Translations under genes and position numbers: made by a program | Assembly: GCA_025356015.1 (NCBI GenBank) | Contig: JANXYO010000047.1 | Span: 1-61,048, forward strand | Direction: 5' to 3' | Length of the DNA: 61,048 nucleotides | Source of the DNA: Spirochaetaceae bacterium | Lineage (GTDB): Bacteria; Spirochaetota; Spirochaetia; Treponematales; Rectinemataceae | Part shown: positions 24,081 to 54,056 of the stretch, piece after piece | Layout: every line of letters begins with the position of its first letter | Position numbering within the stretch: position 1 is the stretch's first letter | The notes under the pieces: generated by a model | Database searches by the model: none | Told to the model about the DNA's origin: nothing | The model's input: the letters and a program-made list of their open reading frames with translations, nothing else

Positions 24081-24644
24081 TCAGCCATGCCGTGCCGGGC
24101 GCGACTCCCTGCGCAGCTCCTCGATCTCCCTTCCCAGCTGGTCGAGACGCTGGAGTATCTCGGCATGGCGCGAGAGCTCGGGCCTGGGAGCCTTCTGGAC
24201 GAAGAAGAGCTGGCCGTCGGGGTCGAGCTCGGCCCTCTCCACATTGGCGAGGGAGGCAATGCCCTGCTTGTGGGCGGCGATCTCGAGCTCAGCCACCGTG
24301 ATCAGCTCCTTGTCGAGCCTGGCCTGATTGAGCCTGCCGTTGAGGATCAGGACATCGGGCCTTCCCTCGAAGGCGGCCTCGAGCCTTGGGTGGCGGAAGA
24401 AGAACCTGACCACCAGGAAGTTGGCGACAAGCAGGGTCAGGGCCCCCACGATCCCGCCCAGCACCGAGTTGTCGTTGCCGATGATGGCGTTCTGGACGGT
24501 GTTGGAGAGCAGGAGGAGGACGACGAAGTCGGAGCTGTTGACCTGGGCCATCTCACGTTTGCCAGCGATCCTGAGGGCCAGGACCAGGAAGAGGTACACG
24601 ATGAGGGGCCTGAGGATCTTCTCGAGGATGGAGATGGCCGGCAC
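24081..24644 (-). CDS. DUF421 (YetF-like) membrane protein
   Basis: A 187-residue protein with two or three N-terminal TM helices (about 10-30, 40-55, 60-80) and the DUF421 core: LRIAGKREMAQVNSSDFVVL, NTVQNAIIGND and the soluble domain start PDVLILNGRLNQARL. The C-terminal 35 residues are charged and helical. The start is GTG at 24644, the first in-frame start after a stop; no strong Shine-Dalgarno sequence is seen. The family is conserved in spore-formers and others, with unclear function. It follows the DoxX gene by 41 bp, probably in one transcript. Confidence 0.88.
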   Translation of the reverse strand: MPAISILEKILRPLIVYLFLVLALRIAGKREMAQVNSSDFVVLLLLSNTVQNAIIGNDNSVLGGIVGALTLLVANFLVVRFFFRHPRLEAAFEGRPDVLILNGRLNQARLDKELITVAELEIAAHKQGIASLANVERAELDPDGQLFFVQKAPRPELSRHAEILQRLDQLGREIEELRRESRPARHG

Positions 24645-32951: not shown

Positions 32952-33929
32952 TCACTCACGCCTCCCTGGCCTCTTCCTCGAGGGCAGGAGGGAAAGGAGC
33001 CAGCCCAGGATGGGGCGAGCTCCCCTGCCAACGCCTGTCCCCGCCCCGTCCCTCCCTGCCCGAGCCGGGGACTCGCCTTCCCTATCCTTTGCCGGGAGGA
33101 TGTTCGCGCGGATGAAGAGGTGGTCTGAAGGGAGCAGGGCGCGCTGGGCCCGGTTCAGGGGGATAGCCCCCTCGATCACGCCGGCGTCAAGGACCTCGAT
33201 GTCCTCGCTGCAGAAGATGTAGTCGAGCTGGGCGAAGTTGGGCTTGGGCGAGAAGTGGTAGTGGGTGCGGCGCTTCTCGACCGGTATCCCGACAGCCTCG
33301 AGGACGTCGATGAAGGGCAGCTCGAGGAAGGGCGAGTACTCGAACTGGTGCTCGCCTCGTATCAGGATGCCGTTGAAGTCGCCCATCACGACACAGTTGC
33401 GCGTGCGCACGAGGGAGCGCAGGCGCTCAACCTCCCTGATGCGCTGCTCGAGGCCCCGGTCGGGGCCGTACTGGGACTTCAGGTGGACCACGAAGACGGC
33501 CAGCCCCCCGCCCTCGCTGCCCAGGTCGAGGCGGAGGAGGTTCCTCGAGAAGGAACCGCTCATATTGCTGGCCCTGCACCCGGGGAAGCGGCCTTTCTTC
33601 ACCAGGGCCCCCACGAAGATGCCGCGCCTCGAGTTCTCTTCGTGCAGGAAGCAGTCGTAGCCCCCTTCCAGATAGAGGCGGTTGAAGGCCTCGAGGGTCT
33701 CCATGCCCCCCACCTCGCAGAGGCCCACGAGGTCGAAGTCGCGCTCGAGGATTGTGGCGGCTATCTCCGCGATCTTATCCCGTTCCTTGTTGGGGTTGAA
33801 GATCGAGGGGTTCATCGCGAGGTACTCGTGGCCTTCGAGAGCCTCGAGCTCCTCGCGCCCCAGGCCGGGGTCCAGGAGGAGGTAAAAGTTCTCGGCGTTG
33901 AAGGAGGCGATGCTCAAGGAACGGTTCAC
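32952..33929 (-). CDS. endonuclease/exonuclease/phosphatase family protein
   Basis: A 325-residue protein. LSIASFNAENFY, LVGLCEVGGMETLEAF (metal Glu), FVVHLKSQYG, CVVMGDFNG (catalytic Asp/Asn) and LPSDHLFIRANI (final Asp-His) follow the DNase I/exonuclease III-like order, so the catalytic set is complete. The substrate could be nucleic acid, a phosphoinositide-like headgroup or other phosphoester. There is no signal peptide. Start is a GTG at 33929 with a weak ribosome site. The C-terminal 50 residues are basic and Pro/Gly-rich. Confidence 0.88.
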   Translation of the reverse strand: MNRSLSIASFNAENFYLLLDPGLGREELEALEGHEYLAMNPSIFNPNKERDKIAEIAATILERDFDLVGLCEVGGMETLEAFNRLYLEGGYDCFLHEENSRRGIFVGALVKKGRFPGCRASNMSGSFSRNLLRLDLGSEGGGLAVFVVHLKSQYGPDRGLEQRIREVERLRSLVRTRNCVVMGDFNGILIRGEHQFEYSPFLELPFIDVLEAVGIPVEKRRTHYHFSPKPNFAQLDYIFCSEDIEVLDAGVIEGAIPLNRAQRALLPSDHLFIRANILPAKDREGESPARAGRDGAGTGVGRGARPILGWLLSLLPSRKRPGRRE

Positions 33930-33938
33930 GGCTCAACT

Positions 33939-34349
33939 CTAGCCGAGGGGAGATGGTTCAGGAAGGGGCTGGGTTCCGCTAAGACTCATCCAGGCCACCC
34001 TGCTCATGCCCATCTTGTTCTCCTTTACCCATGCGCCGTTCTTCTCGAAGCCCTTCTCGAGGTATTCGACGAATTCCATGCCGAGGGCCCTGAGCACCCT
34101 CTCACTCGCGATGTTCCAGAGCGCGTACTGGGCGACGATCGAAACGGCCTCGAGCCTCTCGAAGCCGAAGTCCAGGACGGCCCGGGCGGCCTCCTTCATG
34201 TAGCCCCTTCCTTGGAGGGCTGGGTGGGTCCAGTAGCCGATGTCCCAGACCTTCTCCACATCTGTCTTGCGGATCGAGATGATGCCGACCCGCTGCTCGA
34301 GCTCCCTGTCCACCATGATGAAGGAGTAGTGGCTGCCCTTGATCCCAAG
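33939..34349 (-). pseudogene. 5'-truncated GNAT acetyltransferase (RimJ/RimL type)
   Basis: The readable part starts LGIKGSHYSFIMVDRE and continues with GIISIRKTDVEKVWDIGYW, the CoA-binding loop HPALQGRGYMKEAARAVLDF and NIASERVLRALGMEFVE. That is the C-terminal two-thirds of a RimJ-like acetyltransferase; about the first 55 residues are missing. Directly upstream in the same frame is the TAG stop of the DUF3795 gene, so the 5' part was probably lost in a deletion that fused the two. An internal ATG at 34316 could start a 125-residue product, but it would lack the first strands of the fold. Confidence 0.7.
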
Positions 34350-34781
34350 CTAGAGCCTCGGGCCCTTCCCTATCTCCATCTTTCCCTTGAAGTATTTCGC
34401 CTCGATTGCCCCAGACTCCTCGACAAAGCGCTCAAGGCCCCTCGCCCTGATCGAGCAGAGGTTGAAGACCTTCAGGTTGTGCGGCAGGACCTGGGCCCGG
34501 TCCGAAGCGGGATTGAGCTTGCCGCAGGGGAAGTCCCCGCACTCGTGGCAGAAGCGCACGCCCTTGTCCGCCACGCCCTGGTAGGTTGCGCACTGTTCGC
34601 CAATGACGGGGCAGTGGCCCTCGGCCTTCCTGCAGCCGGGACAGGGCAGCTTCTCCTCGGGGATCCCCCGCTTCTTGAGGGCCTCGAAGAAGTCCCTGTT
34701 GTCCCCGGCCAGGTAGAGATTGCAGTTCCCGCAGTCGATGCCGCAGGCCGCCACCATGGCAAGTCTGTCCTCGGGTTTCAT
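34350..34781 (-). CDS. DUF3795 cysteine-rich protein
   Basis: A 143-residue cytoplasmic protein with a Cys pattern typical of DUF3795: ACGIDCGNCNLYL, LPCPGCRKAEGHCP, EQCATY and CHECGDFPCGKL, likely binding zinc or an iron-sulfur cluster. The ATG at 34781 has AAGGAGG upstream. The same frame stays open far upstream, but that sequence has no family resemblance and lies opposite two plus-strand genes. Its stop is the junction with the truncated acetyltransferase. Function unknown. Confidence 0.88.
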   Translation of the reverse strand: MKPEDRLAMVAACGIDCGNCNLYLAGDNRDFFEALKKRGIPEEKLPCPGCRKAEGHCPVIGEQCATYQGVADKGVRFCHECGDFPCGKLNPASDRAQVLPHNLKVFNLCSIRARGLERFVEESGAIEAKYFKGKMEIGKGPRL

Positions 34782-34904
34782 CCCGCCTCCTTTTTTCGAT
34801 CCCGCGCGTCCAGAGATACTAGCACCAGCCCGCCCTAGGGCGCCACCGCGAGGCCGTTGACCCGGGGCCGCTAAAGCCCGTATCGTCGGATCAAGGGGGA
34901 CACA

Positions 34905-35258
34905 ATGAAACTGGCGGTGCTGGTAGGAAGCGGCAGGAAGATCGGCCTTCTCACCCTGCCCTTCCTGGCGATCGGGCTCTACCTCAACCTCAGCTACCCA
35001 TCCTTCTTCGCGGTCGGGGGACCACATCGCGCCCTCGTGGCGGTGTCGCTCATCCTCCTTGTTCCCGGCATCGTGGCATGGGCCTGGTCGGTATTCCTCA
35101 TCCTCACCCGGATACCCCGGTGGCTCGGCCTGGTGATCGGGGCTGTCGTCTATGTGGGCTCGAGACTTTTCTCGCCCGAGGAGGAGGCGATCCTGGCGAG
35201 GGTCTTCGGCAGCCGCTGGAGTGACTACGAGAAAGGCGTGAGGATACCCTGGCTCTGA
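34905..35258 (+). pseudogene. isoprenylcysteine-methyltransferase-like membrane protein lacking its core
   Basis: A 117-residue frame. The first 70 residues (GRKIGLLTLPFLAIGLYLNL, LVPGIVAWAWSVFLILTRIP) and the last 45 (VVYVGSRLFSPEEEAILARV, DYEKGVRIPWL) match the two ends of the PEMT/ICMT-like methyltransferase family. Its central block, the Gly-Pro-Tyr to Arg/Lys-His-Pro-x-Tyr SAM-binding segment of about 33 residues, should lie after LTRIPR and is absent. The frame is kept, so a stub protein may be made but could not bind SAM in the usual way. A Shine-Dalgarno-like GGGGGA precedes the ATG. Confidence 0.6.
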
Positions 35259-35309
35259 GGCCAGGATCCCCCTGCCACCATTCAAAAGGATCGAAAAGGA
35301 GAGAAGAGC

Positions 35310-36086
35310 ATGGACATCAAGACCCTTCTGGGGCTGTTCGACACCCACGAGCGCATCGGCGCCGACTACCCCCGCTATAGGCGCGAGGTGGCTGGCAGCA
35401 AGGTCAGGATGATCAGCCTCGAGGAGGGCGGGCACCACTACCTCGCCTACTCGAGGCTCACCGAGGACGACGCCGATGCCGCTATAGACGAGGAGCTGCG
35501 CTTTTTCGGCGGCCTGGGCCAAGGCTTCGAGTGGAAGCTCTATTCCCACGACGGGCCGCCAGACCTGAAGCAGCGTCTCGCGGCCAGGGGCTTCTCGGTA
35601 GGCGATGACGAGGCCGTCATGGCCCTCGAGCTCGCGGCCCTCCCGAAGGAGCTCACGGGGGCCCATGGCCACGATGTGCGCAAGGTCGTGGACGAGCAGG
35701 GCATCGCCGACTACGCCCGGCTCAACGCCGAGGCCTGGCCCGACGACGACGAGGCCTGGGCGAACTCCCTCGCCACCACCTTGAGGCAGAAGCTTGAGCG
35801 CATGAGCGCCTGGGTCGCCTATGTCGAGGGGAGGCCCGTCTGTGCCGCGCGCATCGATTTCCCCGGGCATTCCCCCTTCGCGAGCCTCTGGGGCGGGGCG
35901 ACCCTCGAGGGCTTCCGGAAGCGCGGCCTTTACACCGCAGTCCTGGCCGAGAGGGCCCGGGAGGCGATAGCCCGCGGCTACCGCTTCCTCACCATCGACG
36001 CGAGCCCAATGAGCAGACCCATCGTCGAGAGGCATGGCTTCCGCCTCCTCGCGATCTCAAACCCCTGTGACTCTCCCAAGGCCTAG
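35310..36086 (+). CDS. GNAT-family acetyltransferase
   Basis: A 258-residue protein with a GNAT domain in the C-terminal half: AWVAYVEGRPVCAARIDFPG, then the acyl-CoA loop region ATLEGFRKRGLYTAVLAERA and RFLTIDASPMSRPIVERHGF. The N-terminal half (residues 1-125) looks like a degenerate second GNAT copy, as in tandem GNAT proteins. AGGAGAG precedes the ATG. Substrate unknown. Confidence 0.85.
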   Translation: MDIKTLLGLFDTHERIGADYPRYRREVAGSKVRMISLEEGGHHYLAYSRLTEDDADAAIDEELRFFGGLGQGFEWKLYSHDGPPDLKQRLAARGFSVGDDEAVMALELAALPKELTGAHGHDVRKVVDEQGIADYARLNAEAWPDDDEAWANSLATTLRQKLERMSAWVAYVEGRPVCAARIDFPGHSPFASLWGGATLEGFRKRGLYTAVLAERAREAIARGYRFLTIDASPMSRPIVERHGFRLLAISNPCDSPKA

Positions 36087-36125
36087 GAGGTCAAGCAGAG
36101 ACAGGACGCCCTCCCCGGCCAAGCC

Positions 36126-36153
36126 TTGACCCCGCGCCATTTCGCTATAGAAT
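36126..36153 (+). promoter_or_regulatory. promoter of the caspase-like gene
   Basis: TTGACC (36126-36131), 16 bp, TAGAAT (36148-36153). Transcription should start near 36160, which excludes the ATG at 36152 as a start codon. Confidence 0.5.
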
Positions 36154-36178
36154 GCGCACCGAGGCTAGGTCAGCGGAG

Positions 36179-37431
36179 GTGGTAAAAATCAAATCAAAAA
36201 CGGCCCTGCTATCCATCGCGCTCACGGCCGGCCTCTGCCTCCTGCGCGCTCAGCCTGCGGCACCGCAGGACCGCGGTCTGAGCGTGGTGGCGCGCAAGGT
36301 CACCGGCCAGCCTGATTTCGATGTCGGCAAGCAATACGCCGTCGTCATTGGCATCGACAGGTACCAGGAGTGGCCCGGGCTCCGAAGCGCCGTCGCCGAG
36401 GCGAAGAGCATCAGGCGAATCCTGGCCGATCGGTACTACATCGATGAATTCTTCGAGCTCTATGACAGGGACGCGAGCGCAGCCAATATCAGGAGGCTCT
36501 TCGTCGAGACCCTTCCCAGGAAGCTGGGGGTCCACGATTCCCTTCTCGTGTTCTACGCAGGGCATGGACAGCTCGACGCCTCGAAGACCGGTTTCTGGAT
36601 CGCCTGCGACGGCTCGAAGGACGCCTTCAGCCAATCGGGCTGGATCCCAACGCCCAGCTTCGCAACATGCTCGCCCAGCTCAAGGCCCAGCGCATACTCG
36701 TCCTCGCCGACGCCTGTTTCGCTGGCGACTTCCTCAACGTCAGCCGCGGCGCCCAGCCCACAGTGGACTCGGCCTATTCCCGTCGGGCCCTCCAGCTCAC
36801 CGCCCGGCAGGTCCTGAGCTGGGGCGCCTCCGAGACCGTGCCCGACAAGAGTGAGTTCGGCCGCCAGCTCATCTCGCTGCTCGAGCGCAACACCGAGGCC
36901 CTCCTCGACCCCATCGGGATGTACGACCGCATACGCCTCGGCGTCACCCAGACCCAGCCCCTCCTGGGCAGCCTGCCAGGCAACGAGCAGGGCGCGAGCT
37001 TTGTCCTCTTCCTCAAGCCGAGCGCCACCTCGTCTGCAGGGGCCGCGGGGCCCGCAGCCCCTGCCGCGCCTCCCGCCGCTCCGGCCCCCATCGCCGCGCC
37101 GACCATGACGGTGATCCGCTCCTACGGCAGCCTCCTCGTGTCCTCGGCCTCACTGGGTTCGCTCTTCCTTGACGGCAAGGCGATGGGTGAGCTGCCGGCC
37201 GGGGCCGAAGCGCGGCTCGACAACATCGAGGTCGGCGAGAGGACCCTCGAGATCCGCTATGCCAACGGCGAAAACGACCAGCTCAACGCCGTGCTCGATG
37301 AGAAGGTCTGCACCGCGATCTGGGCGGGCCTGCGGGACATCGGCCTTGGGACCCGGAGCCCCGAGGAGGTCGCCGCCGCGGTGCAGACTGCCTTCGACAA
37401 GGGGAAGGCGGGAAATTGGGCCCGGCCCTGA
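36179..37431 (+). pseudogene. exported caspase-like (peptidase C14) protein, frameshifted
   Basis: The first frame encodes a signal peptide (LLSIALTAGLCLLRAQ), a caspase p20 start (YAVVIGIDRYQEWPGLRSAV) and the catalytic His (LLVFYAGHGQLDAS). Near 36646-36649 it leaves the family: after SQSGWIP the protein continues in the -1 frame as NAQLRNMLAQLKAQRI, then LVLADACFAGDFL with the catalytic Cys, and GSFVLFLKP-like p20 end. A C-terminal Ala/Pro linker and a PEGA-like domain (GSLFLDGKAMGELPAGAEA) follow, ending at 37431. One missing base explains the break. The start is uncertain: GTG 36179 is used because the promoter excludes ATG 36152. Intact, it would be a secreted cysteine protease of the metacaspase/caspase type. 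Confidence 0.8.
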
Positions 37432-37526
37432 AGACGGCTCGAGCCGCATGTCGACCAGGTCCACAGGCCCAGGTGCCCCGCCGCCGAGACTCCGTCCACT
37501 TCATGAGCCAAGCCCTTCCTCCCCTC

Positions 37527-38087
37527 CTATCTCGCGCCTGCCCGGCCCTGGGTCCACTCCTCCCTGATGAGGGACCAGAGGTAGCAGTCCTGGAACTTCC
37601 CGTCGGCGACGAAGCTCTTGCGGGCCAGACCTTCCTTGGTGAAGCCGAACCTTAGCGCGATGGCCTGGCTCCTCTCGTTGCGCACATCGCACCAGAGGGC
37701 CAGCCTCTCGAGGGCGTACTCCCAGAAGACATGGTCGATGAGGAGGCCGCAGGCCTCGCTCACGAGGCCCCTGCCCTCGTAGTCCTGGTCGATGCAGTAG
37801 GAGATCTCCCCCGCGCGGAAGTCCTCGTCCATGTCCCTGACGCTCACGACCCCGACGATCCGCTTGCCGTCCCAGAGCCCCCAGGAGCAGAAGCTGCCGT
37901 GGGCCATGGCCTCGAGGCCCCTCACGATGAAGGACTCGGTATCCTTCTCGCTCCGGAGCTTCTCGATAAAGCGCAGGATGCCGCGGTAGTGCTCCCTGTT
38001 CTTTTCGAGGAAGGCGAAGAAGGCCGCGGCGTGGCGCTTCTCGATGAGGGCGAGGTGGCAGTTGTGTTTGAGTGGATAGGACAACAT
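37527..38087 (-). CDS. GNAT acetyltransferase, RimJ/RimL (ribosomal-protein-like) type
   Basis: A 186-residue protein of normal RimL length. It has the opening ALIEKRHAAAFFAFLEKN, the strand GLWDGKRIVGVVSVRDMDED, the CoA loop IDQDYEGRGLVSEACGLLID and the closing LRFGFTKEGLARKSFVADGK. AGGAG precedes the ATG at 38087. It is intact, unlike the two genes just upstream in the same direction. Confidence 0.9.
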   Translation of the reverse strand: MLSYPLKHNCHLALIEKRHAAAFFAFLEKNREHYRGILRFIEKLRSEKDTESFIVRGLEAMAHGSFCSWGLWDGKRIVGVVSVRDMDEDFRAGEISYCIDQDYEGRGLVSEACGLLIDHVFWEYALERLALWCDVRNERSQAIALRFGFTKEGLARKSFVADGKFQDCYLWSLIREEWTQGRAGAR

Positions 38088-38096
38088 CGCTGGCTC

Positions 38097-38369
38097 CTAG
38101 ATGCTTAGTGTCATGCCCGTGCTGATCTTCGCCAGTCTCCCCTTGAGGATCCCGGCGAGGATATGCAAGGCATAGTCTCCTGTGCAGTGGCCGGTGTGGA
38201 AGGAGATTGCGCTGGCGGCCATGAAGCTGCCCCTGGCCAGGTGATTCCTCGGGCCGAAATCATAGAGCATCTTCTGCGAACCGAAATCGATCATGAGGGA
38301 CAGCCCGTGCTTGCCGGGAAATCCTTCAAGGGTGCTGGAATTCTCAAGGATGATCCGTACACTCAGCAT
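38097..38369 (-). pseudogene. metallo-hydrolase (COG1237-like) with internal deletion
   Basis: A 90-residue frame that starts VRIILENSSTLEGFPGKHG, LSLMIDFGSQKMLYDFGPRN as in the MBL-fold group related to methanopterin-precursor synthases, then jumps to FHTGHCTGDYALHILAGILK and LAKISTGMTLSI, the C-terminal end of that fold. About 130-170 central residues are missing, including the HxHxDH metal site. The frame is preserved and GGAGG precedes the ATG, so a stub could be translated, but it cannot be a working hydrolase. Confidence 0.7.
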
Positions 38370-38382
38370 CGTCCCTCCCCTC

Positions 38383-38800
38383 CTATGCCTTCCGCGCCTC
38401 GACTATCAGCCTGTCCTCGTATCTGTCCAGGAGCCTGTGGACCTTGATCCCCGAGAATCCGATCCGCCCCAGACAGCCGATGACGTCGGCGATGTCGTGG
38501 CGGTGGAAGTGCACGTTGTTCGTCAGCTTCGCCTTCTCGAGGAGGTCCTTGTTCTCCATGTAGAAGACCAGCTTTCCTCCGTCCTTGAGGCTTGACCATA
38601 TCCTCGAGAAGGGCGTTCCTGAACTTGCGCAGGGCCCTCGCGTACATGAGGCTCGAGTAGTCGATGCCGACGTAGCCGATGTCGTACTTCCCCAGGAAAT
38701 AGGCGATCCCGAAGCCGGGGCCGAAGCCGATCTCAAGCCTGGACACGAAGACCCCAAGCAAGCCCGAGGGTTTCCTGAGCTGGGATGCGAGCATGTTCAC
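38383..38800 (-). pseudogene. SAM-dependent methyltransferase with deletions and frameshift
   Basis: Starting at GTG 38800, the first frame reads MLASQLRKPSGLLGVFVSR, then jumps to the SAM motif LEIGFGPGFGIAYFLGK and YVGIDYSSLMYARALRKFRN. Near 38590-38600 the family sequence moves to another frame: SLKDGGKLVFYMENKDLLEK, then IGFSGIKVHRLLDRYEDRL and IVEARKA. Compared with class I methyltransferases, about 20 residues are missing before the SAM motif and about 45 after it. The start overlaps the stop of the upstream membrane protein (GTGA), a relic of an operon. Confidence 0.72.
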
Positions 38801-39237
38801 AATGCTTTTCCTCCGTCCCGCAGACGTCTCAGCAGGGGGAAAGGGAACCTGTCCTCCTTCCCCAGCACAAGGATGGAACAGAATCCCAGCACCATGCCGC
38901 AGACCAGGATGGCCAGCTGCATGGGATTGACTGTCTCCATGATGAAGCATTGGATGAGGATCCAGCAGATGGTGACGGAGGCCATGATGATTGCCGAATA
39001 GGGGTAGAGCCTTGCCCTCGCGATCGCGAGGACCGCCGAGGCGATGTTCCCCAGCCCGATCACGATGAACAGGAACAGGCCGGGGATCAGGAAGTCCTCG
39101 AAGGGTCCCCTCCTGAGCGCTTCGGGGGAGATACCGAAGGGCTTATGCGGATTCGAGACGGCCGCATAGCCGCCCGCGACAGCATTCAGCCCGACCAGTA
39201 CCTGCACAGCGATGATCAGTATGTATATTGCTCTCAC
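38797..39237 (-). CDS. four-TM membrane protein of unknown function
   Basis: A 146-residue protein with four hydrophobic segments (about 3-22, 50-72, 78-97, 103-125). A loop holds GYAAVSNPHKPFGISPEALR between TM1 and TM2. I recognise no family with certainty. The GTG at 39237 is chosen because GGAGG lies five bases upstream; the same frame runs further up to 39393 without family-like sequence. The 3' end overlaps the start of the broken methyltransferase gene. Confidence 0.65.
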   Translation of the reverse strand: MRAIYILIIAVQVLVGLNAVAGGYAAVSNPHKPFGISPEALRRGPFEDFLIPGLFLFIVIGLGNIASAVLAIARARLYPYSAIIMASVTICWILIQCFIMETVNPMQLAILVCGMVLGFCSILVLGKEDRFPFPLLRRLRDGGKAL

Positions 39238-39389
39238 CCAGGCCTCCTCCCGGATCGCGCGCCTACTGCGAGGGATGGACGATACCCAGGTTCCGGCGCG
39301 GATGCGGTAGTAGCCTATCTGAACCCTGGCCTGGCCGGCAATGTCCACGGGGCTCCAGCCCGATGCAGTCCTTGAGAATCGCACGCGTC

Positions 39390-40448
39390 TCACCGGACAG
39401 CCGGGAAGGCCCGAAGGACATCCTCGCTGAAGTAGGGTTCCTGGTTCGACCAGAAGATGTAGCTGACGTGGAGGAAGCCCTTCGCGAAGGCGTGCAGGGC
39501 AGGCACGAGGTTCTCCCGCCTCTTCTCGACGCTGGCCGTCCCCGTCTCTCCGATATAGTTCCCGTCCTGGACCGCGATGCCCAGGGGGACGGTGAAGCTC
39601 CCCTCGTGCATCATGGCTATCGTGTGGTTGAGCTGGGCCTTCCTCGTGAAGATCAGGTCGGGGCCGCCAAGCCCGACGCCTATCCTCTCCCCGTACTCAT
39701 AGACCGAGCGGAGATAGCCCTTGTCGTCCCAGGGCAGCCACTCCTCGCTCATGAAATTGGCGTACTGCATCGTCACCGAGCTCGGGAAGGCCCGCTTCAT
39801 CGCCAGCATGTTCGCCTTCACCGCTGCCGCGTAGACAGGGCCGCTGAACGAGGGATCGTCCTTGGCGCTCACCCCGATGGCGGTCTCCTGGAGGTTTATG
39901 CCCTCTATCTTCCCATCAAGCTCTCGTCCCATGGCCTCCAAAAGTAATGCGAAACGCTCCCTGACCCTGGGACTCCAGCGCTTGGCCACCCAGCCCTCGG
40001 GCTTGCCGTCATCGCCGCGCTGATAGACAGCGCCCCCGTCATAGTCCCTGGACATGAGATAGGCCGGGACCGGGTTGAAGCTCGGATCGAAGCTGGCGTC
40101 CTGAAGCTGGACGAAGAGGCGCTTGTGCCTTGCCTTGAGGAACTCGTAGTCATCACGGATCATAGAGAAGTCGTAGCTGCCCCTCTCGGGCTCGACGAGG
40201 GCCCAGGGATACATGATCTGGGCCCCCGCAAAGCTCGGGTTGTCCAAAAAGGCATTGCCGCGCATCGCGGCGCGGTCCCTCGCGAAGTAGACGAAGTTCG
40301 AGATCCCGTCCACGGGGATCGGAGACTGGGCGCCAAGATAGGCCTTGTAGGCCTCGGCATGGCGCTCGGCCGGGTTCTTCCAGTCCTCGCACCAGAGCGA
40401 GCCCGCGCAGGCCAGTGCCAGGAGGATCAGCAGGCCTCTCCTTCTCAT
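39390..40448 (-). CDS. secreted glycoside-hydrolase-like protein
   Basis: A 352-residue protein with a signal peptide (MRRRGLLILLALACAGSLWC). Sequence features suit a TIM-barrel glycosidase: MYPWALVEPERGSYDFSMIR resembles the second-strand region of GH42/GH-A-type enzymes, KIEGINLQETAIGV has an acidic residue at a strand end, and FLHVSYIFWSNQEPYFSEDV closes the barrel. I cannot assign a GH family or substrate. GAGGAG precedes the ATG at 40448. A cysteine after the signal (SLWCED) could make it a lipoprotein. Confidence 0.75.
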   Translation of the reverse strand: MRRRGLLILLALACAGSLWCEDWKNPAERHAEAYKAYLGAQSPIPVDGISNFVYFARDRAAMRGNAFLDNPSFAGAQIMYPWALVEPERGSYDFSMIRDDYEFLKARHKRLFVQLQDASFDPSFNPVPAYLMSRDYDGGAVYQRGDDGKPEGWVAKRWSPRVRERFALLLEAMGRELDGKIEGINLQETAIGVSAKDDPSFSGPVYAAAVKANMLAMKRAFPSSVTMQYANFMSEEWLPWDDKGYLRSVYEYGERIGVGLGGPDLIFTRKAQLNHTIAMMHEGSFTVPLGIAVQDGNYIGETGTASVEKRRENLVPALHAFAKGFLHVSYIFWSNQEPYFSEDVLRAFPAVR

Positions 40449-40467
40449 GCTTCGCTCCTCGGCACTG

Positions 40468-41262
40468 CTAGCTCCCATCGTGGAGCAGAGCATCGATCTT
40501 TGCTTCGATTTCCCAGACCTCGTCCCCGAAGTTGCTCACGACGGTGATCGTCTGTCCGGCCACTTCGTCATGGCTGGAGATGAAGCTCACGCCGGGGTCG
40601 GAGCCCTGGAAAAAGGGAACGAGCCTGTCGCGCCTCGACCTGAACCATGACCCGTATCCGTAGCTCCCCCACTTCCCCTTCACCTGCTCTCTGAGCATCT
40701 GCTGCCGGGACTCAGGACCCAGGAGCTTCCCATCCATGAGGGCCCTCCACAGACGCCTCACGTCCCCGACGGTCGTGAAGGCCCCTCCAGCCCCCGAGCC
40801 CTTGGCGTCGACGCTGTAGATGTTCGTGTAGTACTCCCCCGTCGCCTTGTCCAGGATATAGGCCGAGGCGCAGCCTTCCGGCAAGTGGTCAAGCTCATAG
40901 TAGCCCGTCCTCTCCATTCCCGCTGGCGCGAAGACCTTCTCTTGAAGGTAGCAGTCAAAGGGAAGGCCGCTGACAGCCTCGATGGCCAGGCCGAGGAGGA
41001 CATAGCCGCTGTTGTTGTACTGGAACCTTTCCCCCGGGGGATACATCATCGGCTTGTCGAGGAACAGGGGCAGCAGGTCGCAGAACCTGCGGATCCTGTA
41101 GTTTGGAAGTTCGACCCAGAGCTCCGCGTACTCCGTCATCACCGACTCGTCAAAGTAATCGGGCACCCCCGAGGTGTGGGTCAGGAGCTGGCGGACCGTG
41201 ACGCGCGGTATTTTCTCACTTAATTCTCTGTGGTCTTCATATGGGCGGCGTCGTTCTAACAT
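40468..41262 (-). pseudogene. beta-lactamase/serine hydrolase (class C-like), 5'-truncated at attC-like site
   Basis: From EKIPRVTVRQLLTHTSGVPD onward the protein follows class C serine hydrolases: PPGERFQYNNSGYVLLGLAI (Tyr-x-Asn), ASAYILDKATGEYYT, GSGAGGAFTTVGDVRRLWRA, and ends YGSWFR...TITVVSNFGDEVWEI. The N-terminal part of about 60 residues with the catalytic Ser-x-x-Lys is missing. The frame before it (MLERRRPYEDHRELS) is read from the edge of the attC-like stem-loop. Without the nucleophile it should be inactive. Confidence 0.75.
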
Positions 41263-41362
41263 GCGGTTACCCTGCGACGCGAGCCTGGCGTGGTTCGTGC
41301 CGTTATCTTGCCTAGCACGAACCATGACAGGCCGCGGAGTCTGGTTGAACCGCGCGTTAGGA
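41254..41362. other. attC-like integron recombination site (imperfect stem-loop)
   Basis: A roughly 109-bp imperfect palindrome. The ends are CTAAC (41256-41260) and GTTAG (41356-41360), matching attC core boxes of type YYYAAC/GTTRRR. Then GCGGTT (41263-41268) pairs with AACCGC (41348-41353), GCCTG (41283-41287) with CAGGC (41328-41332), and TGGTTCGTGC (41291-41300) exactly with GCACGAACCA (41315-41324) around a 14-nt loop. Unpaired bases between the boxes are also attC-like. No integrase or second site is visible, and the last core base is A rather than Y, so this is a candidate only. Confidence 0.6.
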
Positions 41363-41635
41363 CTCATCCTAACGGGTGATTATGCCGTTGCGCCTAAACT
41401 CCCACCGCAATCCAGGTTCTCCCACCCCCAGTATACCCACCCCTAGCCCGCATCGAAACCCCGGACGCTGGCCCTACCTGACCACATCCCTCATCCACTC
41501 GCCTCGGCCTTCCAACTTCCCCGATCCTCCAATCCTTCCAATATATTAATCTTCTTTAACCGGCCATTTTCCGCTTGCCCATTTCTCCGCATAGGTGCAA
41601 AAATACTAACCATCATCTCTCAAAGGAGGCCAACG
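41363..41635. other. gene-free stretch between the attC-like site and the next gene
   Basis: No coding sequence is supported here. CCTAAC at 41368-41373 directly repeats the attC core motif without a partner. The stretch becomes AT-rich near 41540-41575 and again at 41600-41620, which probably holds the promoter of the gene at 41636; no convincing -35/-10 pair could be fixed. Confidence 0.5.
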
Positions 41636-42106: not shown

Positions 42107-42208
42107 GCGTCTCGCAGTGGTCCGGCCCCGGCATCCGAAGAGAGCATCACGGAGGCGCTCGGGGCCAGGCCCCAGGCGCAAGCCTCGCAAGTGGTAGCTC
42201 ACATCTCA

Positions 42209-42480
42209 CAATTGGGAGGTCGGGGGCCGCAATTGGAGAGTCGAAGCTCCCAATTAGAGGGGCCGAGATCCTAATTGGCAGGTCACGGGCACCTAGCTTG
42301 AAGGTCAAAGCTCCTAATTGGGGGGTCTGAGCTCCGGCCTCGGAGGTCAGAGCTCCCAAGCCGGGGGTATGGAAATCAAAATTGGTGGCTCCGACCTGGA
42401 AATTGGAGGGTGCCGAGCCAGCAATTGCGAGCTGCGAGCTTCAATCAGCTAGTCCCGAGCTCGGGAGGCAGGAGCCTAGG
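42209..42480. repeat. degenerate 21-bp tandem repeat, about 12-13 units
   Basis: Units of 21-22 bp begin CAATTGGGAGGTC and end GAGCTCC, with AATTG and GAGCTC as recurrent palindromic cores. Early copies (for example 42209, 42230, 42251, 42272, 42294, 42315) are clearer; later ones are more degraded. With a 21-bp period one minus-strand frame reads a heptad such as LGALTFK, but it has stops nearby and no start signal. There are no spacers of unique sequence, so it is not a CRISPR. The whole 394-bp gap 42107-42500 holds no supported gene. Confidence 0.8.
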
Positions 42481-47691: not shown

Positions 47692-49353
47692 ATGAGCATA
47701 CGTGTCAAAATCATCTTCGTCATACTTCCGCTCATCATGGTCGCCGTCGTCCTCGCCGGCATGAGTTCCTATTTTGTCGCGGCCTCGGCCGTGACCAGGG
47801 TGGCCATGGACTTCCTCGCCTTCAAGGCTTCGGAGCTCGAGAAGTACGCGAACGGACAGTGGAACCTCCTCGTCGACAATGGCCTCGTGGGCCGCTCCGA
47901 CATGGAATCGGCGGCCAAGGCGGCTGTCGAGTCCTTCGCCCGCTCGGTCCTGCGCAGCGACACCGAGACGATCATCGCCGTCGATCCCGCGGGCAGGGCC
48001 GCGATGCGTGCGGGGCCTGCCGCCCCCCTCCCGGGCGAGGAAGCTGCCCTCTCCATCTTGGCGGGGGCGGGTGACCGCGGCTTCGGCACAATTAGGATGG
48101 GCTCAGGCGACAGGGTGGCCTTCTACTTCCCTTTCCGCCCCTTCAACTGGCTGATCCTGGTCACCGAGGATAGGGGGGCCTTCTACGGGGCCGTCGAGTC
48201 CATCGCCAGGACCTCGATAGCGATCCTGGCCCTGTCGATGCTTGTCTCGGTCTTCCTGGTCCTCCTCATGGCCCGTTTCATAACCAGGCCACTCGAGGTC
48301 CTGTCCAAGGCCATGCAGAAGATCATCGACGAGAACGACCTCGAGCAACGCGTTCCCGTCGAGTACAAGGACGAGATCGGCCAGCTCTCCCACACCTTCA
48401 ACCTCATGCTCGAGGAGCTGGGCAAGGCCTATAAGCAGATCAAGCTCTTCGCCTACGGCCAGGCCGTGGCCCAGACCAAGGAACGCAAGATCAAGCTGAT
48501 CTTCGAGAAGTACGTGCCCAAGGACGTCATCGACCTTGTGTACGGCAATCCCGAGGACATGCTCGTCGGCGACACGAGGATCCTCGCCGTCCTCTTCTCG
48601 GACATAAGGAGCTTCACGACCATCTCCGAGAAGATGACCCCCAACGACCTCGTCGACACCCTGAACAAGTATTTCTCCTACATGGTGGAAGTCATCATGC
48701 AGGATCACGGCGGCATGGTCGATAAGTACATAGGCGACGCCATCATGGCCTACTGGGGCACTCCCAAGAAACGGGACGACGACGCCTTGCAGTCGGTTCT
48801 GGCCGGCCTTGACATGCTCACGGCCCTGGACAGGTTCAACGAGTGGCAGAAGGAGCGTGGCATGGCTCCCTGGGCCATCGGCATCGGCATCAACTACGGC
48901 GGCCTGACCGTCGGCAACATAGGCAGCGCGCGCAAGATGAACTACACGGTCATCGGTGACATGGTCAACCTCGCCTCACGTCTGGAGGGCGCAACCAAGC
49001 GCTACCACCAGCCCATCATCATCTCCGAGAGCGTCCAGAGAGGGGTGAAGGACAGCCTGCGCTGCAGACACATCGACACCGTCGCCGTCAAGGGCAAGAC
49101 CACGGGAGTGCGGATCTACACGACCCGCAAGACCCTCACGAGCGAGGAGACGCGGACCTGGGACCTCCACGACCAGGCCCTCGAGCTCTACTACTCGAGG
49201 AAGTTCAAGGACGCCGAGGCGGCCTTCAGGGACATCCTAAAAGACAGCCCCGACGACTATCCCGCGGAGATCTTCAAGGAGAGGGCGCTCGCCTTCGCCA
49301 AGAACCCTCCTCCCGCCTCCTGGGATGGCGTGGAAGTCCTCACCGAGAAGTAA
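47692..49353 (+). CDS. membrane class III adenylate/guanylate cyclase
   Basis: A 553-residue protein: TM1 (about 5-30), a 140-residue extracytoplasmic sensor, TM2 (about 175-200), HAMP (FITRPLEVLSKAMQKIIDEN), a linker helix, and a class III cyclase domain (about 290-480). Metal Asp residues are in VLFSDIRSFTTISEKM and MVDKYIGDAIMAYWG; the transition-state part is MNYTVIGDMVNLASRLEG. The Lys of DKYIGD and the Asp of VIGD support ATP as substrate. The last 50 residues contain a TPR-like helix pair. It is first of a five-gene coupled operon with a stop/start overlap (TAATG) to the next gene, so cAMP may report a signal sensed by the downstream envelope proteins. Confidence 0.92.
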   Translation: MSIRVKIIFVILPLIMVAVVLAGMSSYFVAASAVTRVAMDFLAFKASELEKYANGQWNLLVDNGLVGRSDMESAAKAAVESFARSVLRSDTETIIAVDPAGRAAMRAGPAAPLPGEEAALSILAGAGDRGFGTIRMGSGDRVAFYFPFRPFNWLILVTEDRGAFYGAVESIARTSIAILALSMLVSVFLVLLMARFITRPLEVLSKAMQKIIDENDLEQRVPVEYKDEIGQLSHTFNLMLEELGKAYKQIKLFAYGQAVAQTKERKIKLIFEKYVPKDVIDLVYGNPEDMLVGDTRILAVLFSDIRSFTTISEKMTPNDLVDTLNKYFSYMVEVIMQDHGGMVDKYIGDAIMAYWGTPKKRDDDALQSVLAGLDMLTALDRFNEWQKERGMAPWAIGIGINYGGLTVGNIGSARKMNYTVIGDMVNLASRLEGATKRYHQPIIISESVQRGVKDSLRCRHIDTVAVKGKTTGVRIYTTRKTLTSEETRTWDLHDQALELYYSRKFKDAEAAFRDILKDSPDDYPAEIFKERALAFAKNPPPASWDGVEVLTEK

Positions 49354-50654
49354 TGGCGATACCTACTCATATCCGCAGGATAGGACTCCTTCCCCTGCTC
49401 CTCGCCCAGCTTCTCATGCTCGGCAGCCTGTCGGCCCAGGACCAGGTCCCCTCGGCGGCGCCCGACCAGGTCCCCGCCGCGGCCGCCGGGACAGGTCCCC
49501 AAAAGGCCCCCGGATCGGTCCGCCTCTTCCCCGCCATTGTCTCGGCCGACGATCCCAGCCAGGCCGATGACGCCGCGACCTACGCTGCTTCCCTGCGCTC
49601 CGGCCTCGATCAGAGCCTCAAGGCCGCAGGCTATCAGGTGGCCATGGCCGACGCTGCCCTCACCCCCGACCTGAGCGAACCCGCCCAGGCGGCCGACCTC
49701 GCCCACACAGCGGGCAATGACTGGGCCGCAGTCTGCGCCCTCTCGCTCTCCGAGGGCCGCCTGAGCTACCGCGTCGCGATCTACGATTCGGCCGACGGCA
49801 GCCTCGCCGCCGGCGACTCCTTCTCTGTCCTCTCGGGACTCGGTGCCCTGCGGACCATGGGCGACTCGGCGGCGGCGGCTGTCGGCCGGCTCGGAGACTA
49901 CCGCGCCGGCCACGCCGGGACGGTGCGCACGGCGGTGAGCTACCGCATCGCCGTGAGCTGCCCCTCCGAGGGAGCGACGGTGCGCATCGAGTCCCCCGGC
50001 CTCAAGTCGGGGGCGCCGACCGGAAAGATCAAGAACGGCAAGGTCCTCCTGCCCTACTTTCCCTTCCTCCAGGGCTCGACCCTCGTCGTTAGCGCCACCA
50101 CCAAGCTGCTCCAGAGGATGAGCACCACCGTCACCCTCGAAACCCAGGCTCCCCTCATCGAGCTCATGCCCCGGAAGCCCCGTTTTGACATCCTTGTCGG
50201 GACGGGGACTGGCCGGCTCCTGGGCGCGGGTGCCGAGCTACGCGCCTACATCGAGCCGGACTGGAGCTTCCTCTTCCTGGAGGACAGGCTCTATTCGGGT
50301 TTTGACTTTCTGCCCGGCTCCTCCCCGGTGATCCACGAGGAATCATGGAACGGCCTTGGCTGGTACCTCTTCTTCCCGCCCGAGTCCCGTTTCAGGATGG
50401 GCTTCAGCCTTGGTGTGGGCTTCCTGTTCAGCCTCACCACGGCAGCCAGTCCCTCGAAACAGCTCTTCTTCGATTTCGCCCTCCTGCCTGTCAACCTCTT
50501 TGGGGAATACAGCCTCGGCAAGGACATGGCCGCGTGGATGTCTCTAAGGTCGGCCTTCTCGGTGGGGACCGAGGGCTCCGGCCTCCTGGCCAGGGGCTGG
50601 ATGGGCAATGGCACGCCCGCCATCTCCCTGGGCTGGCTCTGGAGGCGAAAATGA
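49353..50654 (+). CDS. exported barrel-like protein A of the cyclase operon
   Basis: A 433-residue protein with a signal peptide (LLPLLLAQLLMLGSLSAQ). Residues about 50-175 resemble the N-terminal domain of TolB-like or lipoprotein sensors (LFPAIVSADDPSQ, NDWAAVCALSLSEGRLSYRV). Residues about 190-260 form a PEGA-like sheet (SYRIAVSCPSEGATVRIESP). The C-terminal 170 residues alternate polar and aromatic residues (AELRAYIEPDWSFLFLEDRL, GWYLFFPPESRFRMGFSLGV) and end in LGWLWRRK, suggesting an outer-membrane barrel. I recognise no family. It shares this three-part plan with protein B at 51646. Overlaps neighbours on both sides. Confidence 0.72.
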   Translation: MAIPTHIRRIGLLPLLLAQLLMLGSLSAQDQVPSAAPDQVPAAAAGTGPQKAPGSVRLFPAIVSADDPSQADDAATYAASLRSGLDQSLKAAGYQVAMADAALTPDLSEPAQAADLAHTAGNDWAAVCALSLSEGRLSYRVAIYDSADGSLAAGDSFSVLSGLGALRTMGDSAAAAVGRLGDYRAGHAGTVRTAVSYRIAVSCPSEGATVRIESPGLKSGAPTGKIKNGKVLLPYFPFLQGSTLVVSATTKLLQRMSTTVTLETQAPLIELMPRKPRFDILVGTGTGRLLGAGAELRAYIEPDWSFLFLEDRLYSGFDFLPGSSPVIHEESWNGLGWYLFFPPESRFRMGFSLGVGFLFSLTTAASPSKQLFFDFALLPVNLFGEYSLGKDMAAWMSLRSAFSVGTEGSGLLARGWMGNGTPAISLGWLWRRK

Positions 50655-51649
50655 GGGCCATGACCTCCCGTAACGCGCCCTTAAGGCTCGTCCCGCTTGT
50701 CCTCTGCATCGCCTTGGCCTGTCTTGCCACTCTCATCCTCGCCTCCTGCACCTACCTCCTCGACGACCCCTACCCGGCCTACACCCAGAGGATCTCCACC
50801 TGGACCGACATCGATGCCACGGTGAAGCAGGTCTCGGGTGGAGCAAGCCTGCTTTTCATAAACCATCTGGACTACCTGGAATCGGGGAGCTCGAGCGGGA
50901 TATTCCTCCAACTGGCCACCTCGGACGGCGTGGGTCGACTCGTGACCCTGGACGGGGGGGACTTTGGCAGTCCCGTGAGCTATGTGTACGGGATCGACCC
51001 CGTGGGCCTGACGACGGGCCTGAGCTCGGCCGGCCAGTATCGCAGCGGGGCCGTGCTGATGAACCCGGCCAACCGGACAAGCGCTGCCGTCCTTGGTCCG
51101 ATATCCGGCATCCTCCTGAGCGAGGCCGGGGTGAACTACTACGGCACCGTGTCGGGTGCGACCATGAGCGCCGCACGCTACGACTCGGCCTGGGTCAGCC
51201 TCGGAACCGTCTCGGTGCAGATCTCGACCATATACCCGGGTCCCTGGGAGCTTGTCTCCGCGGGACAGGGCGGGGGCTGGTACTCCTTCCTCTTCCGTGA
51301 CTCGAGCAGCAACAGCTATCGCGCTTTCAGGACACCCTCGCTGGCCTCGATGACCTGGACCTCCCTCTTCGACGATCCCGCCGTCCCTGCCAGCTACAGG
51401 ACGCCGCAATTCTCGGCCGACATGAGCTCGGTGGGGATCACTGCCGACGGCCCCGTGATGCGGGGCCATTCCCAGGGGGGGAACGGCGACAAGCTCAGCT
51501 TCCTGCCCTTCGGCTCCTCGTCCTCGAAGGACTACTATCCGCGGAACTCGGGCTCGGTCCAATACTTCTTCGAGGCCTCGGGACAGTACTGGTTCCTCCA
51601 CGAGGCCTCATCCGGCCGTCTGTACAAGCTGAGGACCTGGTGGAAATGA
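50651..51649 (+). CDS. lipoprotein A of the cyclase operon
   Basis: A 332-residue lipoprotein (lipobox ILASC, Cys33). The mature part is rich in Ser, Gly and aromatic residues and looks like a beta-propeller or repeated sheet (SLLFINHLDYLESGSSSGIF, WYSFLFRDSSSNSYRAFRTP, SGQYWFLHEASSGRLYKLRT). No family recognised. GGAGG is 5 bases before the ATG, which overlaps the stop of protein A (ATGA); its own stop overlaps the start of protein B. The fixed order barrel then lipoprotein suggests the two act together at the outer membrane. Confidence 0.72.
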   Translation: MRAMTSRNAPLRLVPLVLCIALACLATLILASCTYLLDDPYPAYTQRISTWTDIDATVKQVSGGASLLFINHLDYLESGSSSGIFLQLATSDGVGRLVTLDGGDFGSPVSYVYGIDPVGLTTGLSSAGQYRSGAVLMNPANRTSAAVLGPISGILLSEAGVNYYGTVSGATMSAARYDSAWVSLGTVSVQISTIYPGPWELVSAGQGGGWYSFLFRDSSSNSYRAFRTPSLASMTWTSLFDDPAVPASYRTPQFSADMSSVGITADGPVMRGHSQGGNGDKLSFLPFGSSSSKDYYPRNSGSVQYFFEASGQYWFLHEASSGRLYKLRTWWK

Positions 51650-52929
51650 CGCGGCATCATGGAGAGCGGCTGGCATTGAGCCTCGCCCTCGTCCTCTGCG
51701 CGGGCCTTGGCCTCTCGGGCCAGGACTCCCCCGCGCCCGCAGCCGGAGGGGATGCGGCAGCTCCCGCGGCCGAGGCCAAGCGTTTCAGGATCATGGTGGA
51801 TTTCGCCGGCCCCGAGGGCCAGGATCCCCTCCCCTATCTCGACTCCCTCGAGGCCAGCCTGATCCAGTCCCCCATGGCCCTCGCCGTCGTGCGTGCACCA
51901 CAGGGAGTCGGAAGCCTCGCGACCAGGGCCGAGAGGAGCGCCTGCGCCCTCGCCATCCAGCTTGGCGTCACGGTCGAGGGAGACCAGGCCCGCATCAAGT
52001 GGACGATCTACGCGCCTCCCGGCAGCGAGGCCGCAGGACGCGGCAGCGTGGCCAAGGACCTGCCCGATCCCCAGGCCTTCTCCACGACCTTCTGGAATGA
52101 AGCCATCGAGGCCCTCGAAGCCGCCTCGGCCGGGATGGAGGAGGCGAGGAAGTTCCTCACCCTCGTGGGCAGGCCGGGAACCCTCGTCTCGGGGATCGGC
52201 GAGGACATCCTCCTGCCGGAGTCAGGGAAGGTCGATGTGCCCCTAGTGATGCCCGCCTACGTTGTCTGGAGCGCCACGGCCCCCGGGGCGCGCAAGGAGG
52301 GCGGGACAAGGATCGTGAAGGAAAGCGGTTCCACCCTGGTGATCCCCTTCAGGCCCGAGCTTCCTCCCTCGAAGCTGTCCATAGACACGGCCTTCTACGG
52401 CTTGGCCTTTCCCGAGCTCGGCCTGCGCTGGGACATTTCGAGGCGTTTCTTCCTCAAGGCGAACCTTGGCCAGTACCTCGCGGGCCTCGCCCTCCAGGGC
52501 CAGCAAGGCTTCCAGAGCTCCAAGACCGCGCCGGCCTCCCTCATTTCCTCCATCGAACTCGTGCAGCCCGGCCTCGGCGGAGGTTTTGTCTTCTCGGCGC
52601 CCACGGCCCCTTTCCGCCTCTATGCAAGCTTCGACCTCTTTGCCCGGATCGCCTTCCCCGAGGGGAAGCAGCTGATGCTCGACCCCGTCGCGCCGATTGG
52701 AAGCCAGCTCGCCATGGGCTTCGACTGGGGGAAAAAGCCGGGTATCCGCCTCTATTTCGAGCTGGGCGCTGCCTTGTATCCCTGGGCCTACCCCGGCCTC
52801 ATGATCGCTTCATGGAGCGGCCAGGGCATGCCTCGCCTCACCGGGGGAGGGGCGGGTCTCTTCAACGGTCACCCGGGCTGGTTCGTCGAGTTCCCCGTAC
52901 CACGGCTCGGTCTGAGGATCCACCTATGA
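51646..52929 (+). CDS. exported barrel-like protein B of the cyclase operon
   Basis: A 427-residue protein with a signal peptide (LALSLALVLCAGLGLSGQ). The plan parallels protein A: an N-terminal soluble domain (about 45-175: FRIMVDFAGPEGQDPLPYLD, ACALAIQLGVTVEGDQARIK), a PEGA-like middle (VDVPLVMPAYVVWSATAPGA) and a C-terminal barrel-like part (LGLRWDISRRFFLKANLGQY, FRLYASFDLFARIAFPEGKQ) ending in PRLGLRIHL. Sequence identity to A is low, so A and B are diverged paralogues at best. ATG 51646 overlaps the upstream stop (ATGA) and is preferred to the GTG at 51640. Confidence 0.72.
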   Translation: MTRHHGERLALSLALVLCAGLGLSGQDSPAPAAGGDAAAPAAEAKRFRIMVDFAGPEGQDPLPYLDSLEASLIQSPMALAVVRAPQGVGSLATRAERSACALAIQLGVTVEGDQARIKWTIYAPPGSEAAGRGSVAKDLPDPQAFSTTFWNEAIEALEAASAGMEEARKFLTLVGRPGTLVSGIGEDILLPESGKVDVPLVMPAYVVWSATAPGARKEGGTRIVKESGSTLVIPFRPELPPSKLSIDTAFYGLAFPELGLRWDISRRFFLKANLGQYLAGLALQGQQGFQSSKTAPASLISSIELVQPGLGGGFVFSAPTAPFRLYASFDLFARIAFPEGKQLMLDPVAPIGSQLAMGFDWGKKPGIRLYFELGAALYPWAYPGLMIASWSGQGMPRLTGGGAGLFNGHPGWFVEFPVPRLGLRIHL

Positions 52930-54056
52930 AAGCTACCCCCCGCCTGAGCAGCCTGGCAGCCCGCCTGGGCAGCATGGCGGCGGCCCTTGCAGCCGGCGCC
53001 CTCCTTGTTTCCTGCTGGGCCCCCTACTACAACCCCGCCGTCTCGCTCTCCGTCCCCATGTACAAGAAGCTCGGCAATCCCATCCTGGCCATCGGCCCGA
53101 TATCCACCAAGAATACCGGCGGCTTCGACACCACGCTCCCCGTCGATTTCATCCCCTCGAGGCCGAACACCCTTCCTCCCGATCCCCTCGACGGCTTCAT
53201 GGTCCAGAGGGTCCCCCAGACCGCGTCCATCAAGATCAGCTTTGTGGAGAACAGCGGCGGCAGCTACCAGCTGGCCCCCAGCAGCCAGACCGTCCTCAAC
53301 CAGCTCGGCGATGGAGCCATCGTGCGCGCGGCGGCCGCCAACGGGACCGAAGCCCAGCTCATCGTGATAGGCGACAGGACGGCCGCCCGCCAGTTCTCCT
53401 TCGATCCAGCCATGCACCAGATCAATGTCGGCCCGACCACGGCCCTCGGCACCGGGACGACGGCGGTCTACGCCCTCGGGGCGAGCCTCCTCATGCCGCC
53501 CTCGACCGACACCGACAGCTACGCGGTGCTCTACACCGACGGGACCAGGAACACCGTCTCTATGGATGGGATCGACCTGAACCTGAACAGCTTCTCGGAC
53601 CAGCTCAACGTGACTGCCCCTCTGGCCCTCGGGGGCCACAGCCTCGCCACGGGAGGAAGGGCCTTCCTCGACATCCAGAACCATAGGTTTTACTATTCAT
53701 CCCCTGCCGGCCCGACCTTGCTCTGGGACACCACCATGTGGCCGGGCACCCATCCTGGGCCCAGCGTCCTGCCCATATCGGAGCTCGTGACCACCTTGCT
53801 TTCGGACGGGACCCTTGTGGCCCAGGGTGACAACTACATAAGCGCCTACCGCAGCGATGGAAGCAAGCTCTTCACCATGCCCGCGGGCTCGGTTCGCCTC
53901 GTCCATGAGATCTACTACCCCGGCCCCAATCCCCTCGCCGGGAACTACCTGATCTTCAGCCAGGTGCTTTCGACGGCCGTCCAGGGATCGGGCAGCGACA
54001 GGGAATACTACGTCAATGTGTGGAGATGTCCGCTGTCAGATTTCAGGGCCTTCTAG
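52926..54056 (+). CDS. lipoprotein B of the cyclase operon
   Basis: A 376-residue lipoprotein (lipobox LLVSC, Cys30). The mature protein has regular Gly/Thr/Ser-rich blades (DTTLPVDFIPSRPNTLPPDP, EAQLIVIGDRTAARQFSFDP, SYAVLYTDGTRNTVSMDGID, RFYYSSPAGPTLLWDTTMWP), suggesting a beta-propeller. No family recognised. It is the last gene of the operon and overlaps protein B by 4 bp. A 12-bp inverted repeat follows 10 bp later. Confidence 0.72.
   Translation: MKATPRLSSLAARLGSMAAALAAGALLVSCWAPYYNPAVSLSVPMYKKLGNPILAIGPISTKNTGGFDTTLPVDFIPSRPNTLPPDPLDGFMVQRVPQTASIKISFVENSGGSYQLAPSSQTVLNQLGDGAIVRAAAANGTEAQLIVIGDRTAARQFSFDPAMHQINVGPTTALGTGTTAVYALGASLLMPPSTDTDSYAVLYTDGTRNTVSMDGIDLNLNSFSDQLNVTAPLALGGHSLATGGRAFLDIQNHRFYYSSPAGPTLLWDTTMWPGTHPGPSVLPISELVTTLLSDGTLVAQGDNYISAYRSDGSKLFTMPAGSVRLVHEIYYPGPNPLAGNYLIFSQVLSTAVQGSGSDREYYVNVWRCPLSDFRAF

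Follow-up and report, generated by a model that had tools for sequence, protein, structure and literature searches.

The locus between 33,939 and 41,367 raises the question of why so many genes are damaged side by side, and whether the damage arose in the cell or during assembly. It lies in a 61,048-nt window (the whole stretch of DNA that was analysed); this is contig 53 in a draft genome of 4.17 Mb that comprises 150 contigs.

Genes of the region and their lesions

Eleven genes were counted at 33,939-41,367, and six of them are damaged. Longer relatives were found for each of the six, and the damage was assessed by comparison with them. The features, from left to right, are:

33,939-34,346, minus strand: GNAT acetyltransferase fragment without its N-terminal part (profile match 64-138 of 138)
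34,350-34,790, minus strand: DUF3795 gene, intact by domain coverage (1-82 of 83)
34,905-35,258, plus strand: ICMT-like membrane methyltransferase gene, about 34 codons lost in frame at a junction near 35,120
35,310-36,086, plus strand: intact GNAT gene with 66% identity to a relative (residues 8-256 of 258 aligned)
36,152-37,431, plus strand: caspase-like gene, split by a frame break at about 36,640-36,667, without large loss
37,527-38,087, minus strand: intact RimL-type acetyltransferase (domain match 7-138 of 138)
38,097-38,369, minus strand: metallo-beta-lactamase-fold hydrolase, core lost in frame (about 188 codons net), junction within about 38,213-38,247
38,383-38,794, minus strand: class I methyltransferase, 25 codons lost in frame near 38,737 and about 40 near 38,593 with a frame change
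38,797-39,393, minus strand: small membrane protein with weak DUF2165 similarity (20.9 bits, cut-off 24.9), no damage established
39,390-40,493, minus strand: protein of 367 aa, no Pfam match, intact by comparison with relatives (57-60% identity, residues 9-366)
40,468-41,214, minus strand: serine hydrolase (S12/beta-lactamase fold), first about 85 residues gone
41,215-41,255, minus strand: leader with lower G+C and a non-coding profile, separating the hydrolase junction from the hairpin
41,256-41,360, no strand assigned: attC-like hairpin with CTAAC ... GTTAG ends and a long imperfect stem

The original prediction had named the same six genes with the place and kind of damage in each, and all six were confirmed against longer relatives, profiles and solved structures; the DUF3795 and RimL-type neighbours are whole, as it had stated. 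The GNAT fragment retains the C-terminal 75 of the 138 positions of the Acetyltransf_3 profile. Its alignment begins at residue 65-85 of four relatives (191-217 aa) and at residue 66-104 of the solved acetyltransferases that it matches, and the stop codon of the DUF3795 gene (34,350-34,352) is within a few bases of its open-frame start. The ICMT-like gene has a single 34-residue gap, in frame, with both ends aligned to a 175-aa relative. The two halves of the caspase-like gene lie in different frames and match family profile NF047832 at 2-98 and 115-189 of 211, so that its lesion is a frame break without large loss. In the metallo-hydrolase, residues 1-40 and 53-90 match the two ends of a 280-aa relative, and likewise those of PDB entry 2p4z. 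The methyltransferase lesions were measured on Methylosinus plasmid protein WP_161915568.1, to which the C-terminal alignment is weak; 25 residues are gone in frame, and a second loss of about 40 also shifts the frame. The two pieces had no match in the solved-structure search. The serine hydrolase aligns from residue 86 of a relative with 63% identity (333 aa) and from residue 85 of 3tg9.

In five of the six genes the lesion has removed roughly 75 to 560 bases or the 5' end. As the loss is internal in three genes and 5' in two, with a frame break only in the remaining one, the proposed pattern of a lost centre with retained ends does not hold as a general rule.

Clustering, kind and age of the damage

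Damage is concentrated in the cluster, with 6 of 11 genes affected versus 2 of 33 Pfam-matched window proteins elsewhere that have a partial top domain (Fisher P 0.0014). When the same criterion, a partial top Pfam match, was used on both sides, the counts were 3 of 6 and 2 of 33 (P 0.019). The counts exclude controls without a Pfam match and the sub-cut-off DUF2165-like gene of the cluster, and retain one complete SpoIIAA-like control that is under its own cut-off; both P values are optimistic because the region was picked after its damage was seen. The two partial controls are YetF and one HlyD-type protein. The YetF-like gene (24,081-24,644) matches DUF421 only at 5-71 of 129 and is possibly a natural short form or shortened at its 3' end. 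Of 30 proteins scanned on three other contigs, 27 were Pfam-matched, and in 4 of these the top match (PfkB, Aconitase_C, PHP, and MCPsignal) covered less than 60% of the profile. All four are in frames of ordinary length, and partial Pfam coverage is therefore a noisy sign of damage. The five proteins scanned on contig C110 are all complete. Proteins sampled in other parts of the genome look whole, and damage comparable to the cluster is absent among them.

The kind of damage was compared with published pseudogenes. According to the counts cited from Kuo and Ochman 2010 (PMC2916853), 346 single-lesion pseudogenes of Salmonella comprise 141 with deletions that take no more than 20% of the gene and 131 with premature stops, about 17% with insertions (short), and two with start-codon changes; by our own subtraction from these counts, about 13 of 346 are left for larger losses. 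About five of the six broken genes here lost roughly 20% or more, with the ICMT-like gene (34 of about 151 residues) borderline for this class. At the Salmonella rate, at least five large losses in six genes have a binomial P of 4e-7, a crude guide given that organism and method both differ. Large losses were perhaps easier to notice when the sequence was first read, but stops and frame breaks would have been noticed too. As far as the Salmonella set is described in the cited counts, the cluster resembles its young pseudogenes in that genes are disabled, for the most part by deletions, and show little further decay, while the rest of the genome looks whole. It differs from that set in the size of the losses and in having six broken genes within 7.3 kb.

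A set of large deletions accompanied by hardly any small lesions is awkward for independent neutral decay, and this odd spectrum is the strongest reason for giving weight to an assembly artefact or to a single event. The original view that simple decay would not usually leave such a pattern gains some support from the Salmonella lesion spectrum, but the decay of a young accessory region explains the data without any special process.

No premature stop was found in the 1,131 codons of the broken genes. As 102 stop-making changes are expected per unit of neutral divergence (weighted count), zero stops corresponds to a neutral divergence since the damage of less than 0.029 substitutions per site at 95%, a bound that presupposes no selection on the fragments after the damage. 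In codon usage and third-position G+C, the fragments resemble intact genes. With zero premature stops and normal codon usage, the damage to the six genes looks young. The same normal codon usage and missing stops would also suit truncated genes that persist as stable short forms with retained or new function, and three of the four internal deletions keep the frame. An in-frame share of this size can arise by chance (P about 0.11, calculated by hand; not significant), the first 85 residues of the serine hydrolase and nearly the whole core of the metallo-hydrolase are gone, and the aligned frames of relatives are longer, so that stable short forms are hardly credible here.

The original prediction offered a local deletion process or an assembly artefact as the cause, and neither was demonstrated. 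The short direct repeats that it proposed to look for at the deletion ends were not found at the junctions. A repeat search of 33,900-41,500 returned only short imperfect families, none of them shared by junctions, and no common motif was seen by eye when the junction sequences were placed side by side. False joins in a short-read graph require a shared k-mer at both breakpoints. In an assembly artefact, stretches would have been dropped when pieces of a poorly covered region were joined, with the gene ends kept. Such an origin is in accordance with a draft of 150 contigs, and the large losses, few small lesions, lack of stops, and apparent youth all fit losses that never occurred in the cell. 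On the other hand, the window contains no N characters, the junctions are free of repeats, and the halves are colinear within one gene. Intact genes lie between the lesions, and proteins from other contigs are whole. The missing pieces of the two genes searched for, the metallo-hydrolase and the serine hydrolase, were not found elsewhere in the assembly, where dropped pieces could have been stranded on other contigs, and the hydrolase junction runs into attC-like sequence. An artefact is thus unlikely, although it deserves serious consideration. Assembler choice is described as changing pseudogene counts in a study (PMC11017572) in which, in the portion cited, truncations were set aside. In a narrow search of the literature on pseudogenes and assembly errors, no account of a pattern such as this one was found.

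Right edge of the region and the integron integrase

The lost 5' part of the serine hydrolase is replaced by the leader, and this is followed by the attC-like hairpin at 41,256-41,360; this junction borders integron-like sequence and differs from a plain internal loss. G+C content of 41,201-41,260 is 0.48, and the coding score is -0.195 for 41,215-41,367 versus +0.353 for the hydrolase fragment. The leader at 41,215-41,255 may well be cassette-derived. The hairpin has a folding z of -5.0 (0 of 200 shuffles), and its energy density was reached by no candidate with such ends in 100 shuffled windows. AAC and GTT triplets stand at its ends, as in attC sites, and bulged bases were seen by eye in one putative L-box arm. 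Rfam gave no attC match here. Its hits were all sub-threshold, and a miRNA model over the hairpin was among them and was taken as a chance match. The hydrolase runs in the orientation that would suit the site as a cassette boundary, an orientation assigned from the bulged bases read by eye.

This is the one attC-like site found in the 61 kb window. As a cassette cluster, whether CALIN or array, needs at least two neighbouring sites, an array of cassettes spanning the region was ruled out. DNA searches of the genome with the window site and with the edge of the C110 integron found no convincing match to a similar attC site elsewhere. An integron integrase is encoded in the same genome on contig C110 (G000:C110:540-1481) and scored 447.6 bits with a cut-off of 265; the same profile was above cut-off in none of 14 control genomes. 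The gene is at the contig edge and is transcribed toward the AT-rich contig end, and an integrase of Treponema is, in the passage cited from PMC3607928, likewise transcribed toward attI. The open frame of the integrase (C110 537-2225) is extended at its N-terminus by a stretch in which IPQVE-type units recur. No integrase was found on the window's own contig. On contig C37, a recombinase whose match fell into two pieces first resembled an internal deletion, but its full reading is one open frame, XerD-like by eye.

The hairpin of about 105 bases, with AAC and GTT bounds, a long imperfect stem, and an integrase in the genome, is like integron attC sites and CALIN-type remnants as characterized in the cited portions of PMC9024848 and PMC3607928. 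Unlike CALIN-type elements as described there, it is a single site without an array, without an integrase on its contig, and with no similar site found by DNA search. Lone attC sites may be true or false, as stated in the part of PMC9024848 relied on here, and since no second or similar site was found in the genome, the label was kept at attC-like. A short palindrome at 41,356-41,373 (GTTAGGA / TCCTAAC, with a 4-base loop) is located directly beside the hairpin and may represent another integron core site, although an incomplete one.

The integron-like site at the edge and the integrase in the genome bear on a further possible cause, a single complex event or a deletion process acting locally. 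Template switching or break repair would then have removed several stretches together within 7 kb, with integron recombination at the right edge as a possible trigger. The six lesions are clustered with clean sequence between them, and all appear young, as would be expected from one event. However, the sole attC-like site of the window is at the edge and none is at the other junctions, and a common motif or repeats are absent at the junctions, which makes such an event quite improbable. It is likewise improbable that the deletions within 7 kb derive from one or a few linked events at the edge of the integron remnant, as a small-scale shattering that left the intervening sequence untouched.

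Probable accessory character of the region and loss of its genes

In a scan of species genomes, the nearest relatives of the 367-aa protein (39,390-40,493) were found in Runella (57%) and Sansalvadorimonas (60%), and the protein has no match in Pfam, NCBIfam or PADLOC. The intact 258-aa acetyltransferase is patchily distributed, being present in 9 of 58 genomes, its own included. No syntenic locus was found in relatives, all of them from other genera, as blastn and tblastn of the cluster genes against the fetched loci gave single-gene matches only. The relatives of the 367-aa protein, the patchy acetyltransferase, and the lack of synteny together fit a variable region in which genes come and go, and the stretch is consistent with an accessory and partly horizontally acquired one. 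An anti-phage defence island was considered and rejected, as PADLOC matched the caspase only (1 of 10 proteins).

The cluster is probably a group of young pseudogenes, produced by recent deletional decay of unneeded accessory genes and with integron debris at its right edge. The affected accessory genes would have become dispensable, with selection on them relaxed. Independent deletions would then have been tolerated, being confined to dispensable genes and sparing the intact neighbours, and a rearrangement may have removed the 5' part of the serine hydrolase and joined the gene to an integron cassette remnant.

If the junctions are real, the cluster is a snapshot of accessory-gene loss mainly by large deletions ahead of point damage, a stage rarely caught because such pseudogenes vanish fast. 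If they are false, it is a warning that drafts of uncultured bacteria can hold colinear, repeat-free losses that resemble biology. In both cases, annotating the six truncated genes as functional short proteins would require additional evidence.

Two other observations were made in the window to the right of the cluster. A degenerate intergenic array at 42,191-42,440 has a spacing of about 21 bases with AATTGG and AGCTCC elements (copy spacings 21, 42, 43, and 64); it does not appear in the output of Tandem Repeats Finder at default score. At 49,353-54,056 there are four long ORFs on the same strand without Pfam match, with two of the three overlaps about 120 and about 310 bases long, and these possibly represent frame breaks or an unusual gene family.
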